From assembly GCA_021797355.1 (NCBI GenBank), contig JAJZZX010000002.1, forward strand, positions 62,001 through 126,000: a DNA stretch of 64,000 bases, read 5' to 3'. Within the stretch, counting starts at the first letter, position 1. The number at the start of each line of letters is the position of its first letter. The position numbers and the translations under genes are program-made. Under the pieces are notes generated by a model. That model was not told the origin of the DNA, did no database searches, and saw only the letters and a program-made list of their open reading frames with translations. Origin of the DNA: Thermoplasmata archaeon (GTDB lineage Archaea; Thermoplasmatota; Thermoplasmata; Thermoplasmatales; Thermoplasmataceae). Below, in pieces: positions 2,780 to 47,557 of this stretch.

Positions 2780-4636
2780 ATGGCATTTCAGGGTGCACGC
2801 AAGTTCAAGGATCTTGGAAGGGACGGTTATCTCAGAATATCAAGCCATGGAATGATAGCAAGCAACAGGACAGCAGCTTTGGTGGGCCTCAACGGAACAA
2901 TCGACTGGGCATGCCTTCCAAATTTTGATTCTCCACCTGTATTCGATTCAATCCTTGACAAGAACCGCGGAGGTTATTTTTCCATCCATCCCCATGATAC
3001 GGACAACCTTGAGGTGATTCAATCCTACAAGGAACTCACCAATGTTCTTCTAACAGAATTCATCAGGGATGGCAGGATAATTCTAAGGTTAACTGACTTT
3101 ATACCGACCTCGGATTATTCAACAATAAGCTTCCCGGAAATACACAGGCTGGTTGAGACCATGTCTGACGACGTTGAGGTCGACGTGGGCTTCAGGGCCA
3201 CAATAGATTATGGCAGACGCAAGCCCATCATAGAGCAGCGCAAGAACGGCTTCATCTTCAGGTACCGTAACACAAAGGTTGGAATCGTTAGCGAAATCCC
3301 CCTCGCCAGGGATTCGGATCATGTTTCCGGTTCCCAGAAGATACCAAGAAGGACATCACGCTGGATCGTTGCACTGTACGGCATGTCACATCTTGATTCA
3401 ATTTCAGACTACAAGTCATACCAGCGGCTTGAGGACACCATTGACTACTGGCAGAAGTGGAGCAACTCCACAACATACAGGGGGTTATACAACAATGATG
3501 TGAACAGGTCTGCACTTACACTAAAGGGCCTGTTCTTCGAGCCAACAGGACTCATGGTCGCCGCACCAACCACAAGCCTTCCGGAGTGCATTGGCGGCGA
3601 GAGGAACTGGGACTACCGTTTCGCATGGATCAGGGATACGGCCTATGTCATCGAATCGCTCTCCTTGATTGGATATACGCGGGAGGCAACAAAGTTCCTC
3701 TACGATATGATGGAGAAGATAGAACATGACGGCAGGATCAGGACAATATACCAGATAAATCAGGATGCCAGCCTGGAGGAGATGGAGCTCGATTACGAAG
3801 GCTATATGGGGTCAAGGCCCGTGAGGATAGGGAACAAGGCTGCAGATCAGCTCCAGATTGACCAGATGGGTTCAATCATCAATGCAATATGTGCACTCAG
3901 TGACGCCGGCGGTGTCATAAATTCTTATCTGTGGAACTTCGTCGGCGACACACTTGAGAAACTTTCTCATCTGTGGAGGTCCCCGGATTCCAGCATATGG
4001 GAATTCAGGAATGAGCCAAGACACTACGTATACTCCAAGGTTGTCTCATGGGCTGCGTTCAACAATGCCATAGAAATGGGCAAATTCCAGGGACTCTCAG
4101 GGCCTTACAGGAGATGGAGGGCAGTGGCTGACGAGATAAAGGAGGATATCCTGGCCAACGGTTTCAATGAGGACATCAACAGCTTCTCCCAGTATTACGG
4201 ATCAACGGAGACAGATGCATCTCTCCTGCGTATGCCACTGCTTGGATTCCTTCCGCCAGATGATCCAAGGATTATTGGCACTGTCAGCAGGATCGAGCAT
4301 GATCTGAGGGTCACTGACCACCTTTTCAGGCGCTACAGGCTTGACGATGGCCTGAGGGGGGAGGACAATGCCTTCCTCCTCCTGTCATTCTGGTATGTTG
4401 ATGTCCTGATACAGATGGGAAGGATTGATGAGGCGAAATTGATCTTCGAGTCAATACTGGACAGGGGTAACCATGTGGGACTTTTCTCTGAGGAGATAGA
4501 CTTCAGGACTGGCGATCAGCTGGGCAATTTCCCCCAGGCGATCACGCACCTCGGCGTCATAAGCGTAGCTGTGCACCTGAACAACGCCTTCAAGGAGAGG
4601 CAGAATTCAATAAAGCGCCGCCAGTACCAGAAATAG
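2780..4636 (+). CDS. GH15 glycoside hydrolase (glucoamylase/trehalase type)
   Basis: The 618-residue protein belongs to glycoside hydrolase family 15. It opens with the N-terminal beta-sandwich signature HGMIASNRTAALVGLNGTID and carries the (alpha/alpha)6-barrel motif GGERNWDYRFAWIRD near residue 275, where the Trp-Asp-Tyr-Arg run lines the sugar pocket. The motif QIDQMGSIINA and the C-terminal GLFSEEIDFRTGDQLGNFPQ contain the expected catalytic glutamate region. Family members in Thermoplasmatales include both glucoamylases and trehalases, so the substrate could be maltooligosaccharide or trehalose; the sequence alone does not decide. No signal peptide is seen, so the enzyme is probably cytoplasmic. 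A TATA box at 2743-2751 places transcription start just before the ATG. Confidence 0.9.
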   Translation: MAFQGARKFKDLGRDGYLRISSHGMIASNRTAALVGLNGTIDWACLPNFDSPPVFDSILDKNRGGYFSIHPHDTDNLEVIQSYKELTNVLLTEFIRDGRIILRLTDFIPTSDYSTISFPEIHRLVETMSDDVEVDVGFRATIDYGRRKPIIEQRKNGFIFRYRNTKVGIVSEIPLARDSDHVSGSQKIPRRTSRWIVALYGMSHLDSISDYKSYQRLEDTIDYWQKWSNSTTYRGLYNNDVNRSALTLKGLFFEPTGLMVAAPTTSLPECIGGERNWDYRFAWIRDTAYVIESLSLIGYTREATKFLYDMMEKIEHDGRIRTIYQINQDASLEEMELDYEGYMGSRPVRIGNKAADQLQIDQMGSIINAICALSDAGGVINSYLWNFVGDTLEKLSHLWRSPDSSIWEFRNEPRHYVYSKVVSWAAFNNAIEMGKFQGLSGPYRRWRAVADEIKEDILANGFNEDINSFSQYYGSTETDASLLRMPLLGFLPPDDPRIIGTVSRIEHDLRVTDHLFRRYRLDDGLRGEDNAFLLLSFWYVDVLIQMGRIDEAKLIFESILDRGNHVGLFSEEIDFRTGDQLGNFPQAITHLGVISVAVHLNNAFKERQNSIKRRQYQK

Positions 4637-4682
4637 CCGTTTTGAGCTCATTTTCTCATTTTGCACGGGCATATCTCCCCCA

Positions 4683-4690
4683 TTTATATA
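4683..4690 (+). promoter_or_regulatory. TATA box of the PolB2 operon
   Basis: The sequence TTTATATA lies 22 bases before the ATG at 4712, fitting a leaderless first gene. It favours the 4712 start over an in-frame ATG further upstream at 4661, which would lie before the promoter. Confidence 0.6.
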
Positions 4691-4711: not shown

Positions 4712-5125
4712 ATGCACGGCCCATTGAAGGTATTTTCCACCGACAGATTCATGGCAGAGAACGTAACAAGCATGATTGACCAGTACGATGCCGCCAGGGT
4801 TCACCTCCTCATATCTGACGGCATAATGGTGGATTTCAGGCACGCCTTTCCCCCTGTCGCCAGGAAGTCCATAATTGTACAGAGGGTGCTGACGTCATAC
4901 CAACTCCAGAAGATACTGATGGATTCAGACAACAGCCCACACTATATCGCGCTGGCATCGGAAGTCATCAATTCATGGTACGCATCGGTTGTTTCCGGCA
5001 TATATGACATAATGAGGATAAAATCATATTATCATGGCTGCCCCATCCACCTTAACATAATCGGCGATCCCGGCGTAATGGCAAGGTATCTGGGCGCCAG
5101 GAAGATAGGGCTGGAGGCGTACTGA
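4712..5125 (+). CDS. Degenerate RecA/RadA-like protein, first gene of PolB2 operon
   Basis: This 137-residue protein has no recognisable catalytic motif, but its order of strands and helices can be laid against RadA. The segment LKVFSTDRFMAENV sits where RadA has its Walker A loop, without the GxGKT. VHLLISDGIMVDFR matches [28 protein letters not shown] matches [32 protein letters not shown] matches [14 protein letters not shown], and CPIHLNIIGDPG matches [10 protein letters not shown] infer a shortened, ATPase-dead RecA-family paralogue. From memory, PolB2-type polymerases in archaea are found next to RecA-family proteins, which fits this place in the operon. A role as a polymerase accessory factor, comparable in idea to bacterial ImuA, is plausible but unproven. 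The next gene starts one base after this stop codon. Confidence 0.6.
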   Translation: MHGPLKVFSTDRFMAENVTSMIDQYDAARVHLLISDGIMVDFRHAFPPVARKSIIVQRVLTSYQLQKILMDSDNSPHYIALASEVINSWYASVVSGIYDIMRIKSYYHGCPIHLNIIGDPGVMARYLGARKIGLEAY

Positions 5126-5126
5126 C

Positions 5127-5354
5127 ATGGGACGGAGCATCCCCACAGCACGCCAGGTCATGGAGAACCTCTCCAGGGACATTATGAGGATGGCCGATCT
5201 CATGCAGTCAGGGGACGCAGACATTCTTAAGCAGATCATAATGCTTGGAAAGAAACACTCGGCAGAGATCTCCTATTCCGGCATTGATCCGTACCTTGGC
5301 TTTGTCCTGTCAATTCTCTTGGAGGTATGCCGCAAATCATGCCAGGAGGGGTGA
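5127..5354 (+). CDS. Small helical protein of PolB2 operon
   Basis: The 75-residue product is predicted by eye to be almost wholly alpha-helical: a helix starting PTARQVMENLSRDIMRMADL, a second around DILKQIIMLGKK and a third around LGFVLSILLEVCRK. I recognise no known domain name. It starts one base after the preceding stop and ends three bases before the polymerase ATG, so it is surely co-transcribed with both. The tight spacing implies that it acts with the polymerase and the RecA-like protein, perhaps as a bridging subunit; this is inference. Its 3' end contains a strong Shine-Dalgarno sequence, GGAGGGGTGAT, for the polymerase gene. Confidence 0.75.
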   Translation: MGRSIPTARQVMENLSRDIMRMADLMQSGDADILKQIIMLGKKHSAEISYSGIDPYLGFVLSILLEVCRKSCQEG

Positions 5355-5357
5355 TCC

Positions 5358-7370
5358 ATGGCTGGATCAATTATCAACGCAACTGGATCAGACAGGATAT
5401 GGATCTGGCAGCTTCATGGGAACAGGATTTACAGGAAGCCATACACCAACAGGAGCTGGATATTTGTCTCAGGGGATTCCTATGATCTGGATTTCCTCGC
5501 AAAACAACTTGATGCCTCCTCATCATTCATGTATGAATGGGATACAAGGGCCAGCATCTATGGCCGGCTGGACGGAATCAGGGTCATCGCATATCCCAGC
5601 TCAATGCGTGACCTGTCAGCCATGATCATGGACATTGGATCAGGAAGGAAATATTCAATATTCAACGCTGACATTGATCCTGTTCTGCGCTTTATGGCAG
5701 AGAGGAACCTGCAGTTCTTTTCGCTGGCTGATCCACTGGACAGCGATCCCCATATTGAGTGGGCATTCATAGGCGGAAGATCATGCCTGGGCATTCCATG
5801 CAGCCTGCAGGTGGGGAGGAGGCATTTTGGCAGGATAGATTCCGATGCCTTATATGAGGCATACAGGGCAATAACAGATAACATTGTAATAATATACGAC
5901 AACAGGGACAATTTCTTCAGCAGGATACTTGGCATGATGCTGGACTCTGGGTACAGGCTTCCGCGCATATCCACACATGGGGGATCAACTTACCAGTCTT
6001 ACGGGCAGAGCCATTACAGCAACCCGCGCATAACAATGGAAGGGAAGATATGCATAGAATCAGGATCTTTCTCGTATGCTGAAACAGGCCTGGAAGGACT
6101 CATTGAGATATCAAGGACATCTGGCCTGCCAATTGAAACAGCATCAATGGTAACCACAGGCACAGCTGTGTCCGCAATGGAAGAATCCTTTGCAGTGTCC
6201 AGGAATATACTGATCCCGCTGCGGAAGGACGACCATGAGGGGGAGAAGGACGTGGACACACTAATAAGCACCGACAGTGGAGGCCTTGTTCTGCAGCCTG
6301 AGCCTGGCATATATACCAATGTTCATGAGGTTGATTTCTCCTCAATGTACCCCAGTATAATGGTACGGTACAACATGTCGCCGGAGACCATTGGCAGATA
6401 TGGCGACCTGGCTGTTCACGGCACGCCATACAGGATATCCATGAGCAGGCCAGGCTTCCTGGCATCAGCCCTGAGGCATCTTCTTGAAAGGAGGCTTTTC
6501 TACAAGTCCGTGAAGGGAAGGTCAGAGATATTCGCAAGGAGGGATGCGGCCCTGAAATGGATGCTACTGACATCATTCGGCTACACAGGCTACAAGAATG
6601 CAAAATTCGGGAAAATCGAGATACATGAATCAATAACTGCCATGGGTAGGTGGGCACTGGCAGCATCAATCCGGATAGCAAGGCTGCATGGGTTCACTCC
6701 TGTGCATGGCATAGTGGATTCCCTCTGGCTCTCCGGATCTGGCGACATGGGCTCAGCACTGAAAGATATTGAGGCAGAGACAGGCATAGGGATAGTGGAG
6801 GATGGATACTACAGGTGGATTGTGTTCATGCCGGCCAGGTCTGGCATGGGTGCACTGAACAGGTACATGGGCCTCAGGCATGACGGGACCATGAAGGTCA
6901 GGGGCCTTCATATAAGGAGAAGGGACATGCCCCCTGTGGTTAGGAAATTCCAGTCAGATGCAATAGACATACTCAGGGAATGCCGCACACCAGATGACAT
7001 ATGGAACGCCAGGGATCGCATCAGGAAACTGGAATCCGTGTATCTTTCATCACTTGGAAGCGTCTCAAGATCTGATCTTGTCGTGCCAGTACACATTACA
7101 AGGCACATTGAGGATTATTCGGTTGAAAATCTGCAGAGGATGATTCTGAGGTCGGCGGAATCACAGGGGTATGCCATAAACCCAGGATCGCGCATAGGTG
7201 CTGTCGTCGTTGATCACTCCAGAGGTGTGGTCGATCTTGACGGATCGCACAATGGCATCGACAGGGAATTCTACAGAAGGATTCTGAGGATGTCATTTGA
7301 GCCAATTGAATATGTGGTCAACATAAGTCGGCCCCGTGGCAGGCACATGGATCTGTTCAGTTTCTCCTGA
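5358..7370 (+). CDS. Divergent B-family DNA polymerase (PolB2-like)
   Basis: The 670-residue protein keeps the overall B-family plan but is shorter than the replicative enzyme in this window (799). Motif A is well kept: VDFSSMYPSIMVRYN, with the metal-binding Asp at residue 326. Motif B reads KWMLLTSFGYTG (from Lys400), where active enzymes have KxxxNSxYG, so the asparagine is threonine. Motif C reads HGIVDSLW (450-457) in place of YGDTDS; the second aspartate (454) is kept and the first is isoleucine. In the exonuclease region the Exo I, II and III acidic residues cannot be found; only a weak relic of Exo II (YDNRDNFF) is visible. I infer a proofreading-deficient polymerase that is either very specialised or catalytically weak. 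From memory, the PolB2 family was first called inactivated, and a Sulfolobus member was later tied to damage tolerance. Its 3' end overlaps the convergent cdc6 gene by 14 bases. Confidence 0.85.
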   Translation: MAGSIINATGSDRIWIWQLHGNRIYRKPYTNRSWIFVSGDSYDLDFLAKQLDASSSFMYEWDTRASIYGRLDGIRVIAYPSSMRDLSAMIMDIGSGRKYSIFNADIDPVLRFMAERNLQFFSLADPLDSDPHIEWAFIGGRSCLGIPCSLQVGRRHFGRIDSDALYEAYRAITDNIVIIYDNRDNFFSRILGMMLDSGYRLPRISTHGGSTYQSYGQSHYSNPRITMEGKICIESGSFSYAETGLEGLIEISRTSGLPIETASMVTTGTAVSAMEESFAVSRNILIPLRKDDHEGEKDVDTLISTDSGGLVLQPEPGIYTNVHEVDFSSMYPSIMVRYNMSPETIGRYGDLAVHGTPYRISMSRPGFLASALRHLLERRLFYKSVKGRSEIFARRDAALKWMLLTSFGYTGYKNAKFGKIEIHESITAMGRWALAASIRIARLHGFTPVHGIVDSLWLSGSGDMGSALKDIEAETGIGIVEDGYYRWIVFMPARSGMGALNRYMGLRHDGTMKVRGLHIRRRDMPPVVRKFQSDAIDILRECRTPDDIWNARDRIRKLESVYLSSLGSVSRSDLVVPVHITRHIEDYSVENLQRMILRSAESQGYAINPGSRIGAVVVDHSRGVVDLDGSHNGIDREFYRRILRMSFEPIEYVVNISRPRGRHMDLFSFS

Positions 7371-8469
7371 TCAGGGCCTCTACCTTTTCCTGCAATACAG
7401 ATATAGGAATGTCATTAATGCCTATGAGCTTGGAGACGCCCTGACGGTCCCCCCTCCCAATGACTCTTCCCTCCACTATCCCAAGATTCTCAAGCCTCTT
7501 CACTGCCCTGTATATGGCTGTGTTCTCCCTTACAGGTATGCCATACTGTTCCGAGATTACCCTCATTCCGTCAAGGACACATGACATGCTGGTGCTCGGC
7601 TCATCCACAAGGCAGTGGCAGATGGAGAGAAGAACTGCAAGATCAAGCGGATCAAGCTCATTGAGCTTGCTCTCCGTAACGTAAGGATTAATCATGGACT
7701 GGGCAGCCCTTACATCCTCAATGGACAGTTCAGTGCCGTTCCTGTACTCACAAACGTAGGCTGACTTCTGCAGAAGCTCAATGGCCACCCTTGCGCTCCC
7801 GAATGGCTGTGCCACATGGCCTATGTATCTCTTCACGTCGCTGTCAACGGACCCCTGGACAAGAGCCAGTCTGGCCCTTTCCTCTATTATTGTGGTGAGT
7901 TCCTCCTCAGAGTACCTGTTGAAAAGTATGCTCGAAAACACCCCCAGGGATTTCCTGTCCCTCTCGGTCATGTATATGGACGGGTCCTCCATGGACACAA
8001 GAATGGTGGAGACTGGAGTGGAATAGATCTCCCTTGCCCTAAGAAGGTTGTACAGCCCATCCCTCTCAAACTTTATCAGGTTGGTAGCCTCGTCTATTAT
8101 TACAACCATATTTTTTCCGCTCTTGTCTATGGCCCTGTTGAGGAACCTGAATATGTCACTGTATGAAAGGTTCCTGGCTGCGGAGACTTTCCCGACCCTG
8201 TACATGACATCCAGCAGGAGTGCCCTGAGGTTGGTGAAGGAGAGGGCATTCTCATAGGCAATGGTGAATGATTTTTCCTCCCGTGCCAAGTATTTCATTG
8301 TTGAGGTCTTTCCGGTGCCAGAATCGCCGAAGGCAACCAGGTTTGCGGAAATGCCTGATCTCAGAGGCTCCAGCATAACCTTCCTTATGGTGTCAATCTG
8401 GGTATCCCTGAACCGCAGCCTCTGCGGAACATACGAAAAATCAAGGGCATCAGGATTCCTTACTATCAA
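7357..8469 (-). CDS. cdc6: Cdc6/Orc1 family origin-binding AAA+ ATPase
   Basis: This 370-residue protein would recognise replication origins and help load the MCM helicase. The Walker A motif is GDSGTGKT (48-55) and Walker B is VVIIDEATN (122-130). Arginine-containing sensor regions follow (FNRYSEEEL and PFGSARVAIELL), and a C-terminal winged helix is visible around ENTAIYRAVKRLENLGIVEG. The N-terminal NPDALDFSYVPQRLRFRD is typical of archaeal Cdc6. The start is TTG, since no ATG or GTG is available near that motif. A run of T followed by ATTGG (8493-8503, minus strand) lies at TATA distance. It shares a strand with the radical SAM gene 41 bases upstream and converges on the PolB2-like gene. 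I see no repeated origin-recognition box in the short upstream gap. Confidence 0.93.
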   Translation of the reverse strand: MIVRNPDALDFSYVPQRLRFRDTQIDTIRKVMLEPLRSGISANLVAFGDSGTGKTSTMKYLAREEKSFTIAYENALSFTNLRALLLDVMYRVGKVSAARNLSYSDIFRFLNRAIDKSGKNMVVIIDEATNLIKFERDGLYNLLRAREIYSTPVSTILVSMEDPSIYMTERDRKSLGVFSSILFNRYSEEELTTIIEERARLALVQGSVDSDVKRYIGHVAQPFGSARVAIELLQKSAYVCEYRNGTELSIEDVRAAQSMINPYVTESKLNELDPLDLAVLLSICHCLVDEPSTSMSCVLDGMRVISEQYGIPVRENTAIYRAVKRLENLGIVEGRVIGRGDRQGVSKLIGINDIPISVLQEKVEALIRRN

Positions 8470-8510: not shown

Positions 8511-10190
8511 CTAAGCACCGCTCATGGCAGCAAGCGAGTGGAATTCATTCTTCTGGTCAAGACCCCACCTCTTGACCTTCTCTATGTCCACACCCTTCTT
8601 CTTTGCCATGGATTCAACGAACTTCATCATCAGGAGCCCACCCCCGGATATGATTGAGCCGGTTCCAAGCCTGGCAAATATATTTCCGTGGGCATCCCTG
8701 AAGCCGTCCCTGGAGGCCATCTTGGCAAGATGCCTGTATGAAGCATAGTATACTGCCAGCTGGTCCGCCGTAAGCACATCGGTGTTCAGCTCCCTGGACT
8801 TGATCCTTCCCAGCGGAACGTTGACAAGCGGGGTAACGGTGAACTCGAAAGGCCTACCATGAGCATAGGAATTGCTCAGCCTGTTGACCATTGCTATGGT
8901 GTCCCACATGTCCTCCACAGTTTCGCCCTCCTGGCCAACCTGTATGGTGAATGCAGGCCTCCAGTAGTTAGTGGTCTCAACAAACACTCCCTGCCAGACG
9001 ATCTCCTGCCACGTGCCATCCGGACCAATCCTCAGGGGAAGCGTCTTGTTAGGCATGTGCTTCTTCGCCAGTTCATCGCTCCCTGTCTCTACGCCAGTCT
9101 GGATGCCTATCCAGTTCCTTGGGCCGGTCCTGAGTATCTTGGAAAGTTTTTCCATCATCTCAGGGTATCCGGCAGGAATGGAGATCCTCCCGTGGGTGGG
9201 ATTGGATGTCTTTATGCCGGGAACGCTTATGGCGGCTGAAAAGAGTTCAGACAGCGCCTCCTCGTTTGGAGCGAACATTGCTCCATGCTTGTATCCGAAT
9301 ATCTCATCAGAGTGGAGCCAGGCGTTGTCTATTCCACCGCGCTGGTTTACCTTTATCTCATTTACTATGCGTTCCACTGAATTGTACCTCAGGGGCCTGA
9401 GGGTAACCTCGCAGAAGTCGCACCCTACTCCGCATCCCCTCATGACTTCAACCATCCCCTTCATGGATGGGTTCACTATCTCAGGTATATCCTCAAGCCT
9501 GGGATATGCAGATTTAGTTATTCCCCTGGCTATGAAAAGGTCATCCTTCTTGACTACCTTCCTGAAATTGTCATCATACGTCATGTATCCCCTGTGGAAG
9601 AGGGTGCTGTCAATGCTGTCCTCAGCGATCTGATCAAATAGCGTCTCCGCAATATCGTCTATCTCTCCCTGCACTATGTAGTCAAAATGATATTTTTCTA
9701 TCTCATCCCTTAGTATCGTGAATTCCCATACCCCGGGGCCACCAACCACAAGCTTTGCCTTCTTGCCGGCCCTAACTGCATTAATTCTGGCTATGAGTGC
9801 GTCCCACTCCTTCCTGACCCACGCCATCATCTCCCCGCCAAAGAGGGCGTAGTATGACATTGTGGTCGGGCCAATTCCAAGAGGGTCCATGGTGGAGACG
9901 CCTATGACCTTCGTATCATCCGTGATGAAGCGCTCAAGATAGTCCTCATGGGCCACTGCAACATCTTTCTTGGGAAACTTTCTGAGCAGAGCTGCCTCGA
10001 TCTTCCTCAGGGCATATGGGGCAAATACTGCCTCGCCATTGGGATGCGCCGGAGGGGCCGGCCCCTTGAGGAATCTGTATACTGGCCCAGGCACGGCCTG
10101 CCCTGGGGCACAGGGCAGGAAATCAAGAAGCGGAAAATTTCTGTATTCATAACTTAACGTGGAATCTGATACCAGTACGAACTTGGTCAT
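8511..10190 (-). CDS. B12-binding-type radical SAM protein, candidate lipid-modifying enzyme
   Basis: The 559-residue protein has an N-terminal region of the cobalamin-binding type and then a radical SAM core. The iron-sulfur motif is CGVGCDFC (CxxxCxxC), in MRGCGVGCDFCEV near residue 260. Before it, KLVVGGPGVWEFT and DYIVQGEIDDI are typical of B12-binding radical SAM proteins. GIQTGVETGSDELAKKHMPN is part of the SAM-binding barrel. Archaeal enzymes of this shape include the GDGT ring synthases and the tetraether synthase of membrane lipid synthesis. Thermoplasmatales make cyclised tetraethers, so that role is plausible, but the family contains many unrelated enzymes and I cannot assign the substrate. 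The ATG has AGGAG ten bases upstream and an AATATTTAT box at 10231-10240. Confidence 0.8.
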   Translation of the reverse strand: MTKFVLVSDSTLSYEYRNFPLLDFLPCAPGQAVPGPVYRFLKGPAPPAHPNGEAVFAPYALRKIEAALLRKFPKKDVAVAHEDYLERFITDDTKVIGVSTMDPLGIGPTTMSYYALFGGEMMAWVRKEWDALIARINAVRAGKKAKLVVGGPGVWEFTILRDEIEKYHFDYIVQGEIDDIAETLFDQIAEDSIDSTLFHRGYMTYDDNFRKVVKKDDLFIARGITKSAYPRLEDIPEIVNPSMKGMVEVMRGCGVGCDFCEVTLRPLRYNSVERIVNEIKVNQRGGIDNAWLHSDEIFGYKHGAMFAPNEEALSELFSAAISVPGIKTSNPTHGRISIPAGYPEMMEKLSKILRTGPRNWIGIQTGVETGSDELAKKHMPNKTLPLRIGPDGTWQEIVWQGVFVETTNYWRPAFTIQVGQEGETVEDMWDTIAMVNRLSNSYAHGRPFEFTVTPLVNVPLGRIKSRELNTDVLTADQLAVYYASYRHLAKMASRDGFRDAHGNIFARLGTGSIISGGGLLMMKFVESMAKKKGVDIEKVKRWGLDQKNEFHSLAAMSGA

Positions 10191-28340: not shown

Positions 28341-29306
28341 ATGGTCGAAAGCAAAGAGCAGAAGAAATTCACAATAGAGGATCTACCTGGTGTTGGAGAA
28401 GCCACCGCTGAGAAGCTCAGGGAGAATGGATATGACGACATCATGACAATTGCCGTGGCATCGCCAAAGGACCTTTCTGACGTTGCAGGAATCGCCGAAG
28501 GCAGTGCCTCTAAGATCATTGCGGCCGCAAGGAAATATGCGGATGTAGGGAATTTTGAGACTGGTGAGGAGATACTGGAAAGAAGGAAGGAGGTCTCCAG
28601 GCTCACAACTGGAAGCAAGAACCTGGACAACCTTCTGGGAGGGGGCTTCGAGACGCAGTCCATTACTGAGTTCTTCGGGGAATTCGGTTCCGGGAAGACA
28701 CAGATAATGCACCAGGCCGCTGTGAATGCCACAATGCCCGTAGAGGATGGTGGTTTTGATTCTGATGTCCTCATAATTGACACGGAAAACACTTTTCGCC
28801 CTGAAAGGATAATACAGATGGCCAAATTCAGGAATCTTGATCCGGACAGGGTACTAAAGCGAATCCATGTAGCCAGGGCATACAACTCCCACCACCAGAT
28901 CCTTCTGGCAGAAAGGGCATCAGAGCTGGCAAAAGAGTTTCCCATAAGGCTCCTCATCGTTGATTCGCTGACCTCGCACTTCAGGTCTGAGTACATGGGC
29001 AGGGGTTCACTGTCAGAGAGACAGCAGTTGCTTAACCGGCACATGCATGAGCTCCTGAAATTCGGCACAATAAACAATGCAGTCATAGCCGTTACAAACC
29101 AGGTATCGGCCAGGCCGGACGTGTTCTTCGGCGACCCAACTGCCCCTATTGGCGGAAACATAGTGGGCCATACAGCCACTTTCAGGATCTATTTGAGGAA
29201 GAGCAAAGGTGGAAAGAGGATTGCACGGCTAATAGACTCTCCGTATCTTCCGGAGGGAGAAACGGTGATTCAGATAACAGAAGACGGAGTCTTAGACGGC
29301 GTTTAA
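28341..29306 (+). CDS. radA: RadA recombinase
   Basis: The 321-residue protein is the archaeal RecA/Rad51 recombinase, which coats single-stranded DNA and drives strand exchange. The N-terminal helix-hairpin-helix domain includes [20 protein letters not shown]. The ATPase core has Walker A GEFGSGKT (113-120), Walker [13 protein letters not shown] and the DNA-binding loop region [20 protein letters not shown]. The FxxA-like linker needed for filament assembly would lie between the two domains. It is intact in all points where the short RadA-like gene of the PolB2 operon is not, and makes a useful contrast to it. Confidence 0.98.
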
Positions 29307-44276: not shown

Positions 44277-46676
44277 ATGAAGATCAGGATGCGAATACTG
44301 GTTGCCTCATACAGACGGTCAGATATAGCAGTAGAGCTGTACGGCCGCACGGATCAGGGGAAATCAGTCACGGCCCTGTATTTCGGCTTCCTACCTTACT
44401 TTGATCTCGTAGAGCCTGGAAACGCCTGCCTCATGTCATATCGCAGGGACGAGCAGTATGTGCGGGAGGAGAACAGGAGGCTCTGGGTGGATGGTGTCGA
44501 CAGGGAGGTTACCAGAATTTATGTCAAATCGCCATGGCTTGTCCCCCAGTTAAGGGAGAAGTGTCCAGGTGTGCAGGTGCTTGCAGCAGATATACCGTTC
44601 CATCACAGGTTCATATACGATATGGACCTTGGATCTTGCGTTGAGATAGATGGTGATGAAATACCAGAGGAAAAGAAGAACTACACTACAGAATACGTTA
44701 TCAGGATATCCTCAATATCAAACATCCCGGAGTTCAATCCGCCCCTTAAGATAATGAGCTTTGACATAGAAAATGCAATCCAGAAAGGGCAGGACGAGGA
44801 GTATGGGCAGATATTTGTCATAGGTTACTCAATATCCGACGGCCAGAGCAAGGAGACTGGCCACGTAACTGGCAAGGAAAAGGACTTGCTTAGGGACTTT
44901 GTGCGAATTGTAAATGAAAAGGATCCAGACCTGATCACCGGATACAACATTGACGGCTACGATCTTCCGGTGCTGAAGTACAGGATGGACCGCAATGGCG
45001 TTAGGTTCAGCATCGGCCGTGACTTCGAGCAGCCACACCGGATTCAGGGGCAGTACTGGCGCCTGCATGGCAGGATAATATCCGACACCTGGTGGGGAGT
45101 GAAGAAGATACTTCATCCAAAGAGCGAAACCCTGAATTATGTGGCAAGGGAGCTTCTTGGCGAGGGAAAGGACAACATAAACAGGCTCAAGATAGAGGAG
45201 GAGTGGGCTACAAGGCCTGATGAGGTGATCAGGTACTGTATCAAGGACGCCGATCTTACACTGAGAATCTTCCAGAAGATCAGGCTTGTCGATAGAAATA
45301 TGTACATAAGCACTGTTGCCAAACTTCCGCTGGACGATGTTACTAACGGAGGCACAAGCAACTACGTGGATTCCCTCCTCATAAGGAAGGCAGACAGGGA
45401 GGGCATAGGCGTGCCCATGACGAAGCACAACTACAAGGAGGCCCCAATTGAGGGAGGCTATGTACACAGCATAGGCGCAGGAATTTACGATTACGTAGTG
45501 GTACTGGATTTCAAGAGCATGTATCCCTCAATGATCATGAAATACAACATATGCTTCACCACATATAGCCCAAACGGCGAAATAGTTGCCCCCAACGGGG
45601 TAAGGTTTCTGTCCCGGGAGAAGAGGGAAGGGCTGGTGCCACGGCTGCTGCGCGACCTCATGGAACAGAGGGATGCAGTAAAGAGGCAGATGAAGTCCGC
45701 AACTGGAGAAGAGGCAGAGTACCTTGACGGGGTGCAGGGCGCCATCAAGATACTCATGAACACATTCTACGGTGTCCTGGCATCATCATTCTACCGGTTC
45801 ACCAATCTTGAGATAGGCAGCGCTGTTACGGCCTTTGCCCGGAAAACCATCACCTCACTGATAGAAAAGCTGAAGAAGGAAAATTATCGGGTAATCTATG
45901 GCGATACTGACAGCATATTCATTGAATCAGGGGCAAAGTCAGATTCGGAGGCAGTCAAGTTCGGTGCAGGCCTCAGTGAAAGGATATCACGCGAGGAGGG
46001 CGTCACCGTTGAGTTTGAGAAGGTCATGGATCCATTATTTTCTCATGGAGCCAAGAAGCGATATGCAGGGAGGATCGTCTATCCGGAATCCCAGAAGGGT
46101 GAGATCCTTGTGAGGGGATACGAAGTGAGGAGGACGGACTCTTTTGACCTGCAGAGTGAGGCTCTTTCAAAGGTATTCGACCTGGTGCTTGGCAGGAACA
46201 TAGAGGGAGCAGTGGAGTTCAAGCGGGATATTGTGGAGAGGATCAGGCGGGGCGATCCTTCAATTGACATTGAAAAGCTTGTAATTTCCAGGACAGTCAA
46301 GGATTTTAAGTCCTACAAGGAGGAGAAGTCCCTGGCAAACGTCCGTGTGGCAAAGATGCTCATGGAGAGGGGGGAAACGTTCATTCCAGGGATGAAGGTC
46401 TCATGGATTGTCACCAACAGCAGAAAGACACCCCAGGAGGTGGAGCCATACATCGACGGCGTGCAGTTCCAGGGGAAACCTGACTGGGAATATTACGCCC
46501 GCCGTGTTGAGGAGACCCTGGACAGGGTGCTTGAGGGCATAGCGGAGGATTACGTATCATCGGAGAGCCAGGTAAACCTCCTGGATTTCCATGGCAATGA
46601 TGGAAAAGGGATCAATGGAGCCAGTGAAGGCTCGAAGGAGGGGAAGAATAAGCAGTCTAGCCTTTTCGAATTCTGA
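44277..46676 (+). CDS. polB: Replicative B-family DNA polymerase (PolB1)
   Basis: The 799-residue polymerase has all active-site motifs. The proofreading exonuclease shows Exo I SFDIEN (Asp163), Exo II GYNIDGYDLP and Exo III YCIKDADLT. The polymerase has motif A DFKSMYPSMIMKYN (Asp411), motif B KILMNTFYGVLASS and motif C YGDTDSIF (541-548). The tail LLDFHG... and the ending QSSLFEF fit a PCNA-binding (PIP) box. It is the intact counterpart to the PolB2-like gene at 5.4-7.4 kb. It ends two bases before the convergent dehydrogenase gene. Confidence 0.98.
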   Translation: MKIRMRILVASYRRSDIAVELYGRTDQGKSVTALYFGFLPYFDLVEPGNACLMSYRRDEQYVREENRRLWVDGVDREVTRIYVKSPWLVPQLREKCPGVQVLAADIPFHHRFIYDMDLGSCVEIDGDEIPEEKKNYTTEYVIRISSISNIPEFNPPLKIMSFDIENAIQKGQDEEYGQIFVIGYSISDGQSKETGHVTGKEKDLLRDFVRIVNEKDPDLITGYNIDGYDLPVLKYRMDRNGVRFSIGRDFEQPHRIQGQYWRLHGRIISDTWWGVKKILHPKSETLNYVARELLGEGKDNINRLKIEEEWATRPDEVIRYCIKDADLTLRIFQKIRLVDRNMYISTVAKLPLDDVTNGGTSNYVDSLLIRKADREGIGVPMTKHNYKEAPIEGGYVHSIGAGIYDYVVVLDFKSMYPSMIMKYNICFTTYSPNGEIVAPNGVRFLSREKREGLVPRLLRDLMEQRDAVKRQMKSATGEEAEYLDGVQGAIKILMNTFYGVLASSFYRFTNLEIGSAVTAFARKTITSLIEKLKKENYRVIYGDTDSIFIESGAKSDSEAVKFGAGLSERISREEGVTVEFEKVMDPLFSHGAKKRYAGRIVYPESQKGEILVRGYEVRRTDSFDLQSEALSKVFDLVLGRNIEGAVEFKRDIVERIRRGDPSIDIEKLVISRTVKDFKSYKEEKSLANVRVAKMLMERGETFIPGMKVSWIVTNSRKTPQEVEPYIDGVQFQGKPDWEYYARRVEETLDRVLEGIAEDYVSSESQVNLLDFHGNDGKGINGASEGSKEGKNKQSSLFEF

Positions 46677-46678
46677 GC

Positions 46679-47557
46679 CTATTTGGTGTACTCACTTACG
46701 TCAACCCTGTGTTCAGCCTTACCCTGCAGATAGAGCTTGACATTGGCGCATGCCCTCATCAGTGCCGATTCCATTGAATCCTGGGATATGCCGGCCACAT
46801 GAGGCGTCAGTACTGCATTTTCAGGCAGCGGAAGTTTGACTTCAGGCTCATTCCACCAGACATCGGTCAGATAGGCAACTTCCCTGTGGGAAGACAAGTA
46901 GTCCCTCATGCTCTGCTCATGCACAATGTCTGCCCGGGCAACGTTCACTATCATGGTACCGTGGAAACGGGAGAGAAGCTCCCTGCCCACCATGTTCCTG
47001 GTGCTTGCAGTCAGGGGCAGTCCTATTATTATGACATCCGATTTTTCCATCAGAATTTCAGGGCTGGACTCGAAGCTGTCCGCTATGCCATCCTCTTTCG
47101 GCGATCTGGTGTATGCCAGCACTTTCATTCCCAACCCTTTCGCTATGCGCCCGCAACTTCTGCCGATGCCGCCGTACCCCAGGACTCCAAGAGTGCGGCC
47201 AAAAAGGGAATAAACGGGCTCTTTTCTGTAGGTCCCATTCCTGATCATGGAATTGAAATGGCAGATCCTGTTGGAATGCTCCAGTATGAGGGCGAAAGCA
47301 TGCTGAGCTACAGAATCCGAGAAAGCACCGGCGTTGCTGAAGAACTCAACGCCAGGTGGAAACTTGGCGAAATCTATGTGGTCAACGCCCGCTGAGATGG
47401 TCTGGACAGCCTTGAGCCGGGTAGTGGGGACAAATCCGCGCATTCCTATCTGTATATCAGCGTCATCAGGTCTGTTTACAGTAACAGGTATTCCAGCTAT
47501 TTCAGAGCATCTTGAAGCAGTCTCTTCCGGAATGTCAAGGAGTATTGTCGCCTTCAT
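46679..47557 (-). CDS. D-isomer specific 2-hydroxyacid dehydrogenase
   Basis: The 292-residue NAD-dependent enzyme has the Rossmann motif TLGVLGYGGIGRSCGRIAKG. Catalytic residues are expected at Arg in VNVARADIVHEQ, Glu in WWNEPEVKLPLP and His in LTPHVAGIS. Members reduce 2-oxoacids (glyoxylate, phosphohydroxypyruvate, hydroxypyruvate and others); no SerA-type ACT domain is present, so serine synthesis is not clearly shown. The gene converges on polB and has its own promoter near 47560-47600. Confidence 0.92.
   Translation of the reverse strand: MKATILLDIPEETASRCSEIAGIPVTVNRPDDADIQIGMRGFVPTTRLKAVQTISAGVDHIDFAKFPPGVEFFSNAGAFSDSVAQHAFALILEHSNRICHFNSMIRNGTYRKEPVYSLFGRTLGVLGYGGIGRSCGRIAKGLGMKVLAYTRSPKEDGIADSFESSPEILMEKSDVIIIGLPLTASTRNMVGRELLSRFHGTMIVNVARADIVHEQSMRDYLSSHREVAYLTDVWWNEPEVKLPLPENAVLTPHVAGISQDSMESALMRACANVKLYLQGKAEHRVDVSEYTK

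Follow-up and report, generated by a model that had tools for sequence, protein, structure and literature searches.

A probable PolB2 mutasome operon in a Thermoplasmata archaeon and a candidate damage-response element upstream of it

What do three tightly packed genes with a divergent DNA polymerase do in an uncultured acidophile? We analysed a stretch of 64,000 nucleotides (the window) that belongs to a 1.74 Mb genome (G000); the named genomes closest to it come from Thermoplasmata metagenomes, and one of these is called Cuniculiplasma. The window sequence contains three ORFs on the + strand, at 4712–5125, 5127–5354, and 5358–7370. The gap between ORF1 and ORF2 is 1 base (5126), and that between ORF2 and ORF3 is 3 bases (5355–5357). 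A single TATA-like box, TTTATATA (4683–4690, + strand), serves the operon. It is located 21 bases upstream of the first ATG, a distance that fits a leaderless transcript. The original prediction, made from the sequence alone, had described a tightly spaced three-gene operon with one TATA box, and this layout was confirmed. The locus is very probably a PolB2 mutasome operon, encoding a translesion holoenzyme that is probably switched on by damage via a tandem element, with an Orc1/Cdc6 protein as the likely regulator. The PolB2–iRadA–PPB2 system has already been described (Makarova 2014, PMC4104785; Timinskas 2025, PMC11791011); therefore, the locus adds a member to a known kind of system.

The genes of iRadA, PPB2, and PolB2 are adjacent and co-directional in the window and in its relatives. 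The order iRadA–PPB2–PolB2 was kept in 22 of 25 genomes of the same family, and it is common to Thermoplasmata, methanogens, and some bacteria. The gene-order comparison across Thermoplasmata thus favored the predicted operon. For all three genes, dN/dS between same-genus genome pairs was 0.04–0.22, which indicates that all of them are under purifying selection and none is decaying. The same genes in the same order, together with these dN/dS values, ruled out chance or an assembly artefact. ORF1 had been called a relic, a misleading label because selection maintains the gene.

Several variations were observed around the operon. A trehalase-like GH15 gene (2780–4636) flanks it, and a B12-binding radical-SAM gene (8511–10190) lies beyond the Orc gene; same-length ORFs were found at both positions in same-genus genomes. 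In one relative, iRadA and PPB2 are fused into one protein of 216–219 aa (L017:3866–4525 = L077:4324–4971), a fusion of a type already reported. In G011, a 50% complete genome, PolB2 is split over several frames (L029:4659–6646), through sequencing error or true decay. On a bacterial metagenome contig (L136:1518–2111), a LexA-type repressor gene is located directly 5' of the PolB2 operon genes, as reported for bacteria.

ORF3 (5358–7370, + strand) encodes a B-family DNA polymerase of 670 aa. It matched Pfam PF00136 (B-family polymerase), and its score against NCBIfam NF004416 was 571 bits (curated cut-off 516). When 39 polymerases were placed in a tree, it grouped with 24 other PolB2-operon polymerases in a clade of 25 rows with a support of 100/100. 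The PolB3 of the same genome fell in the other clade. Motif A of ORF3 is intact (DFSSMYPSI, residues 326–334). Motif B is altered (KWMLLTSFGYTGY, residues 400–412), and so is motif C, which alignment placed at residues 450–455 (HGIVDS; 6705–6722, + strand). Compared with YGDTDS of PolB3, the first Asp of DTD is replaced by Ile, and the second Asp is kept. This substitution is the one described for PolB2 (PMC11791011). The divergent polymerase with altered motifs that had been predicted is indeed of the PolB2 type. Inspection of the PolB2 alignment by eye revealed no DIE exonuclease motif following the conserved NADI segment. The active PolB3 of the same genome is also located in the window, at about 45000–47000.

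The replaced Asp of motif C could mean that PolB2 is catalytically dead and that the complex of the three proteins has a structural or regulatory role at stalled forks or origins. An inactive PolB2 was first proposed from lost catalytic residues (PMC4104785), and the conserved Orc1/Cdc6 neighbor would suit such a role. However, no sequence in the PolB2 alignment has lost the motif A Asp, the motif B Lys, or the second Asp of motif C, and a PolB2 of Sulfolobus in which the first Asp is likewise substituted is reported to be an active extender (PMC8764526). We consider a dead polymerase very unlikely. Sulfolobus Dpo2 acts in damage tolerance and as an extender, and translesion extension activity is known for S. 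islandicus Dpo2 (PMC7390963 and PMC8764526 for the former, PMC8764526 for the latter). By analogy, the PolB2 of the window would be a translesion polymerase whose proofreading site no longer works, and it would most likely extend mispaired or lesion-terminated primers.

Two further segments of PolB2 may contact its partners. A TGTAVSAMEE segment (6156–6185, + strand) just before the DK-type motif was conserved in the alignment, with G268 and E275 invariant and T266 and T269 nearly invariant. A published model placed the iRadA-binding β–α element in this region of PolB2 (PMC11791011). The segment is a candidate for a contact with iRadA that resembles RadA oligomerisation. The second segment is a C-terminal PIP-like (PCNA-binding) tail, HMDLFSFS (7344–7367, + strand). 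PIP-like tails were found at the same place in PolB2 of relatives (QADLFSFS, QITLSKFF, QRVLTSFF, and RNLLDFFH), whereas in methanogens and Archaeoglobales it is iRadA that ends in such a motif, of the QTTLEVF type. The distribution of these putative clamp motifs agrees with the published rule that one partner, PolB2 or iRadA, carries the clamp motif. In this lineage, the PolB2 tail would bind PCNA.

ORF1 (4712–5125, + strand) encodes a protein of 137 aa, and no GxxxxGK[ST] P-loop (Walker A) was found in these 137 aa. It had been predicted to align with RadA without an ATP site. The missing ATP site was verified; the direct alignment was not, as hhalign of the window-type iRadA profile against RadA of the same order gave no match. 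The link to RadA runs through longer iRadAs and the predicted structure. In a chain of profiles, window-type iRadA matched methanogen and Archaeoglobales iRadA at 75–82% (E about 1e-5), the latter matched longer iRadAs at 97.8% (8e-13), and long iRadA matched RadA at 98.2% (4e-14). Reversed profiles and unrelated neighbors, used as controls, gave about 1% or less. Since the direct comparison was empty, the assignment rests on these intermediates and on the fold.

The 3D structure of iRadA was modeled using AlphaFold2 (pLDDT 89.4, pTM 0.85). Foldseek with this model returned BcsE as the best match, followed by RAD51, UvsX, and RecA. The TM-scores were only about 0.5–0.6, and the probability was 0.99–1.00 for the RAD51, UvsX, and RecA matches. 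The RecA fold expected for ORF1 was thus recovered by structure prediction. BcsE is another degenerate NTPase-like domain. Together with the empty direct comparison, this top match would fit an origin of ORF1 from another Rossmann-like or P-loop protein that was recruited to the operon in Thermoplasmatales. We regard that origin as very unlikely. Throughout the family, ORF1 occupies the place of iRadA in the operon, and RAD51, UvsX, and RecA are among its best folds. It also has the motif [VI]xR-x-[LF]T-x-x-Q[LF] in common with the longer iRadAs, which match RadA at 98%. Examined by eye, this motif reads IQRILTSYQLQKIL in the window's family, VQRVLTSYQLQKIL in the window, and VARAFTAYQL in long iRadAs, with a counterpart in RadA. 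Operon position, profile chain, and predicted fold identify ORF1 as iRadA. The active RadA of the same genome is encoded within the window at 28341–29297.

ORF2 (5127–5354, + strand) encodes a small protein of 75 aa that starts with MGRS. A profile built from close relatives found homologues at 71 of the 80 PolB2 loci of the genome collection, in Thermoplasmata, Archaeoglobales, methanogens, and bacteria. At most of the loci without a homologue, the polymerase is near a contig end. An xGR[TSN] start was present in 67 homologues, and G2 and R3 were invariant in 62 sequences. By its sequence, ORF2 is PPB2, formerly arCOG07300, with the MGR[ST] N-terminal arm of that family; arCOG07300 was named PPB2 in 2025 (Timinskas 2025, PMC11791011). 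The AlphaFold2 model contains four helices (pLDDT 93.4). Foldseek with this model found nothing significant, including no significant PDB neighbor. Pfam gave no match for iRadA or PPB2, and profiles of both found nothing significant among PDB sequences. The second protein is small and helical, as predicted; it is not undescribed, because it is PPB2.

How the three proteins may work together was considered in the light of known systems. A published in-silico study proposes exactly the mutasome-like complex that the original prediction had suggested by analogy (PMC11791011). In such a complex, iRadA, with a RecA fold and no ATPase, would dock on PolB2 through an interface like that of a RadA filament, and PPB2, probably a trimer, would put its conserved MGR arm in the cleft beside the DNA. 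The polymerase role and the geometry of the complex are inferred from published Sulfolobus work and from published models (PMC11791011, PMC8764526, PMC7390963); the present analysis contributes the genes, their order, the selection on them, the predicted iRadA fold, and the conservation of the operator. In the published modeling, PolB2 paired with RadA as a control reached a ranking score of 0.28.

The locus shares with the PolB2 (Dpo2)–iRadA–PPB2 mutasome of Sulfolobus islandicus and others (PMC11791011, PMC4104785) the gene order, the lost first Asp of motif C, the MGR[ST] start of PPB2, an ATPase-less RadA-like partner, and an Orc1/Cdc6 neighbor. It differs in that its iRadA has only 137 aa, with a RadA origin invisible to direct profile comparison, and in that the Orc gene is convergent. 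With this operon, a known archaeal translesion machine that has barely been tested is now recorded in an uncultured lineage of acidophiles, where its RadA partner is extremely reduced.

An analogy may also be drawn with the E. coli Pol V mutasome (UmuC, UmuD' dimer, and RecA), which likewise combines an error-prone polymerase, a small oligomeric partner with an N-terminal arm, and a RecA-fold partner. Unlike Pol V, the polymerase here is of the B family (PF00136) and not of the Y family, and the RecA-like partner is an inactive, dedicated subunit. We know of no homology between PPB2 and UmuD.

An Orc1/Cdc6 paralogue is encoded convergently at 7357–8469 (– strand). It matched TIGR02928 with 156 bits and contains Cdc6_lid and Cdc6_C domains. 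Its gene adjoins PolB2 in convergent orientation in 22 of 22 family genomes with the operon. The three family genomes without PolB2, one of them only 66% complete, also lacked this Orc, and only the other paralogue was kept (3/3). Because, within the family, this Orc and PolB2 are always present or absent together, it is the likely regulator of the polB2 operon. Loss of the whole block explains the shared absence as well as functional linkage would.

A tandem element, TCATTTTCTCATTTT (4648–4662, + strand), is located upstream of the TATA box and is a candidate damage-response operator. It consists of two CATTTT half-sites with an 8-base period, includes ATTTTC (= ANTTTC) at 4650–4655, and occurs once in the window. 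In 22 of 23 relatives, the best match was 45–56 bases 5' of the iRadA start, mostly 45–49. The summed match score over the 23 loci was 272, versus 204 ± 3.9 (maximum 214) for 200 dinucleotide shuffles. Across 41 genomes, 37 exact matches were among the matches listed, versus 1 for the reversed control. TCATTTTyTCATTTT or a degenerate form was present at all compared Thermoplasmatales loci except those of the f4 genomes; it was weak at L070, L071, L073, and L082. The element was absent from the upstream region of radA of this Thermoplasmata genome, where radA follows another gene. Upstream of the Orc gene, it was found at one locus only (L068), and upstream of the second Orc of family f3 it was not convincing. 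The element occurs together with a second Orc in families f1 and f3; f4 has PolB2 and one Orc without the element, and f2 has PolB2 and a second Orc with no clear element. That the element tracks the second Orc across families is suggestive only. Judged from sequence, DNA damage would probably switch the operon on through this element, with the convergently encoded Orc1/Cdc6 as the likely regulator.

A related box was found outside Thermoplasmatales. Of 16 other polB2 operons, most of them from methanogens, 15 had ANTTTC 54–59 bases 5' of iRadA (the null gave 0.6 on average and 3 at most), and ACTTTC occurred 70–83 bases 5' of radA in 15 of 15 genomes, in a test free of the selection made by the genome search described below; neither count takes account of genome relatedness. 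In the same zone, ACTTTC was found in none of 14 EF-1α and none of 13 radB upstream regions. The methanogen element, CACTTTCRC, shares its core with the damage hexamer of Sulfolobus, ANTTTC, and is located upstream of polB2 operons and radA. Searching four methanogen genomes with CACTTTCRCMCC returned radA and an RPA-like gene (the RPA call was made by eye). CACTTTCRC matches in two apparent methanogen tRNA genes and others inside ORFs were discounted. In methanogens (L226, L240, L242, L243, and L247–L262), CACTTTCRC-type boxes were observed before radA, an RPA-like OB-fold gene, and an Rpn-like nuclease gene.

T-rich tracts often occur close to archaeal promoters, and the upstream element might be a general strong-promoter feature of these AT-rich genomes instead of a damage operator. 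In one genome (G019), the same 15-mer also occurs within IS605 transposon copies; five of its nine exact matches were set aside as IS605 tnpB copies or repeats of these. However, neither dinucleotide shuffles nor the reversed pattern yielded the element, and the methanogen box precedes radA and is absent before EF-1α and radB. Similar motifs have also been connected with the induction of genes by UV, both in Sulfolobus (PMC5817253) and in Halobacterium (PMC2556686). We judge the promoter explanation unlikely and favor a damage operator.

The comparison with these UV-linked motifs shows both likeness and difference. The Sulfolobus UV-response hexamer ANTTTC is bound by Orc1-2 (PMC5817253, PMC9738581). 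As in this Sulfolobales Orc1-2/DDRE regulon, an ANTTTC core is located upstream of BRE/TATA, and an Orc1/Cdc6 paralogue is encoded beside the polB2 operon. Unlike the DDRE, the element here has tandem CATTTT half-sites with an 8-base period and is about 20 bases from the TATA box, ~10 bases further than in Sulfolobus, and its Orc regulator is only a candidate. If the transcript is leaderless, the half-sites are at about –62 and –54 relative to the transcription start, versus about –44 to –39 in Sulfolobus. According to the accessible part of PMC2556686, the Halobacterium UV-B motif TTTCACTTTCA, found upstream of radA1, is likewise a repeated TTTCA-type element about 50 bases 5' of start codons, and similar sequences occur upstream of radA in haloarchaea and Methanospirillum. 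That part makes no link of TTTCACTTTCA to polB2, Orc1/Cdc6, or the Sulfolobus ANTTTC, which is later work.

From sequence similarity, we infer that the Sulfolobus and Halobacterium damage motifs can be joined and extended to polB2 operons. This joining was not found in the literature searched, a search that most subscription papers lay outside. New relative to that literature are the conserved tandem/CACTTTCRC element and the co-occurrence of Orc1/Cdc6 with PolB2. The element looks like a damage-response switch common to distant archaea. We propose tentatively, as somewhat less than an even bet, that it governs the PolB2 mutasome, methanogen radA with some RPA-like genes, and undescribed small helical proteins of Thermoplasmata, as a counterpart of LexA/SOS. 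The element matters more than the operon. Little is understood of how damage responses are regulated outside Sulfolobales, and according to a review, halophilic archaea are believed to have no SOS response (PMC5626843). An archaeal SOS-like regulon becomes testable through a box that is conserved on polB2 operons and radA and is related to the UV-linked motifs, and the element and this possible damage regulon are worth following.

Other genes also carry the element. In G019, the 15-mer occurs with TCATTTACTCATTTTTCACA near the ends of repeated IS605/tnpB-like elements (L192–L195). In the window's genome, the element and a TATA box precede two paralogous 64-aa proteins (L185:2569–4107 and L184:4338–5907), which are candidate regulon members. 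One heads an operon with a 98-aa protein and a XerA-like integrase; the other is followed by a 58-aa protein and a radical-SAM enzyme. A further candidate is a 107-aa protein followed by a methyltransferase (L183:2282–3287), also preceded by the element and a TATA box. In relatives (L187, L196–L199, L201, and L202), the element is found in front of additional small proteins, 58–75 aa long and probably helical. Some share a GxxDxxxxQ...FxxFxxxLRDxI pattern and form no clear family. These 58–75 aa proteins could be damage-induced.
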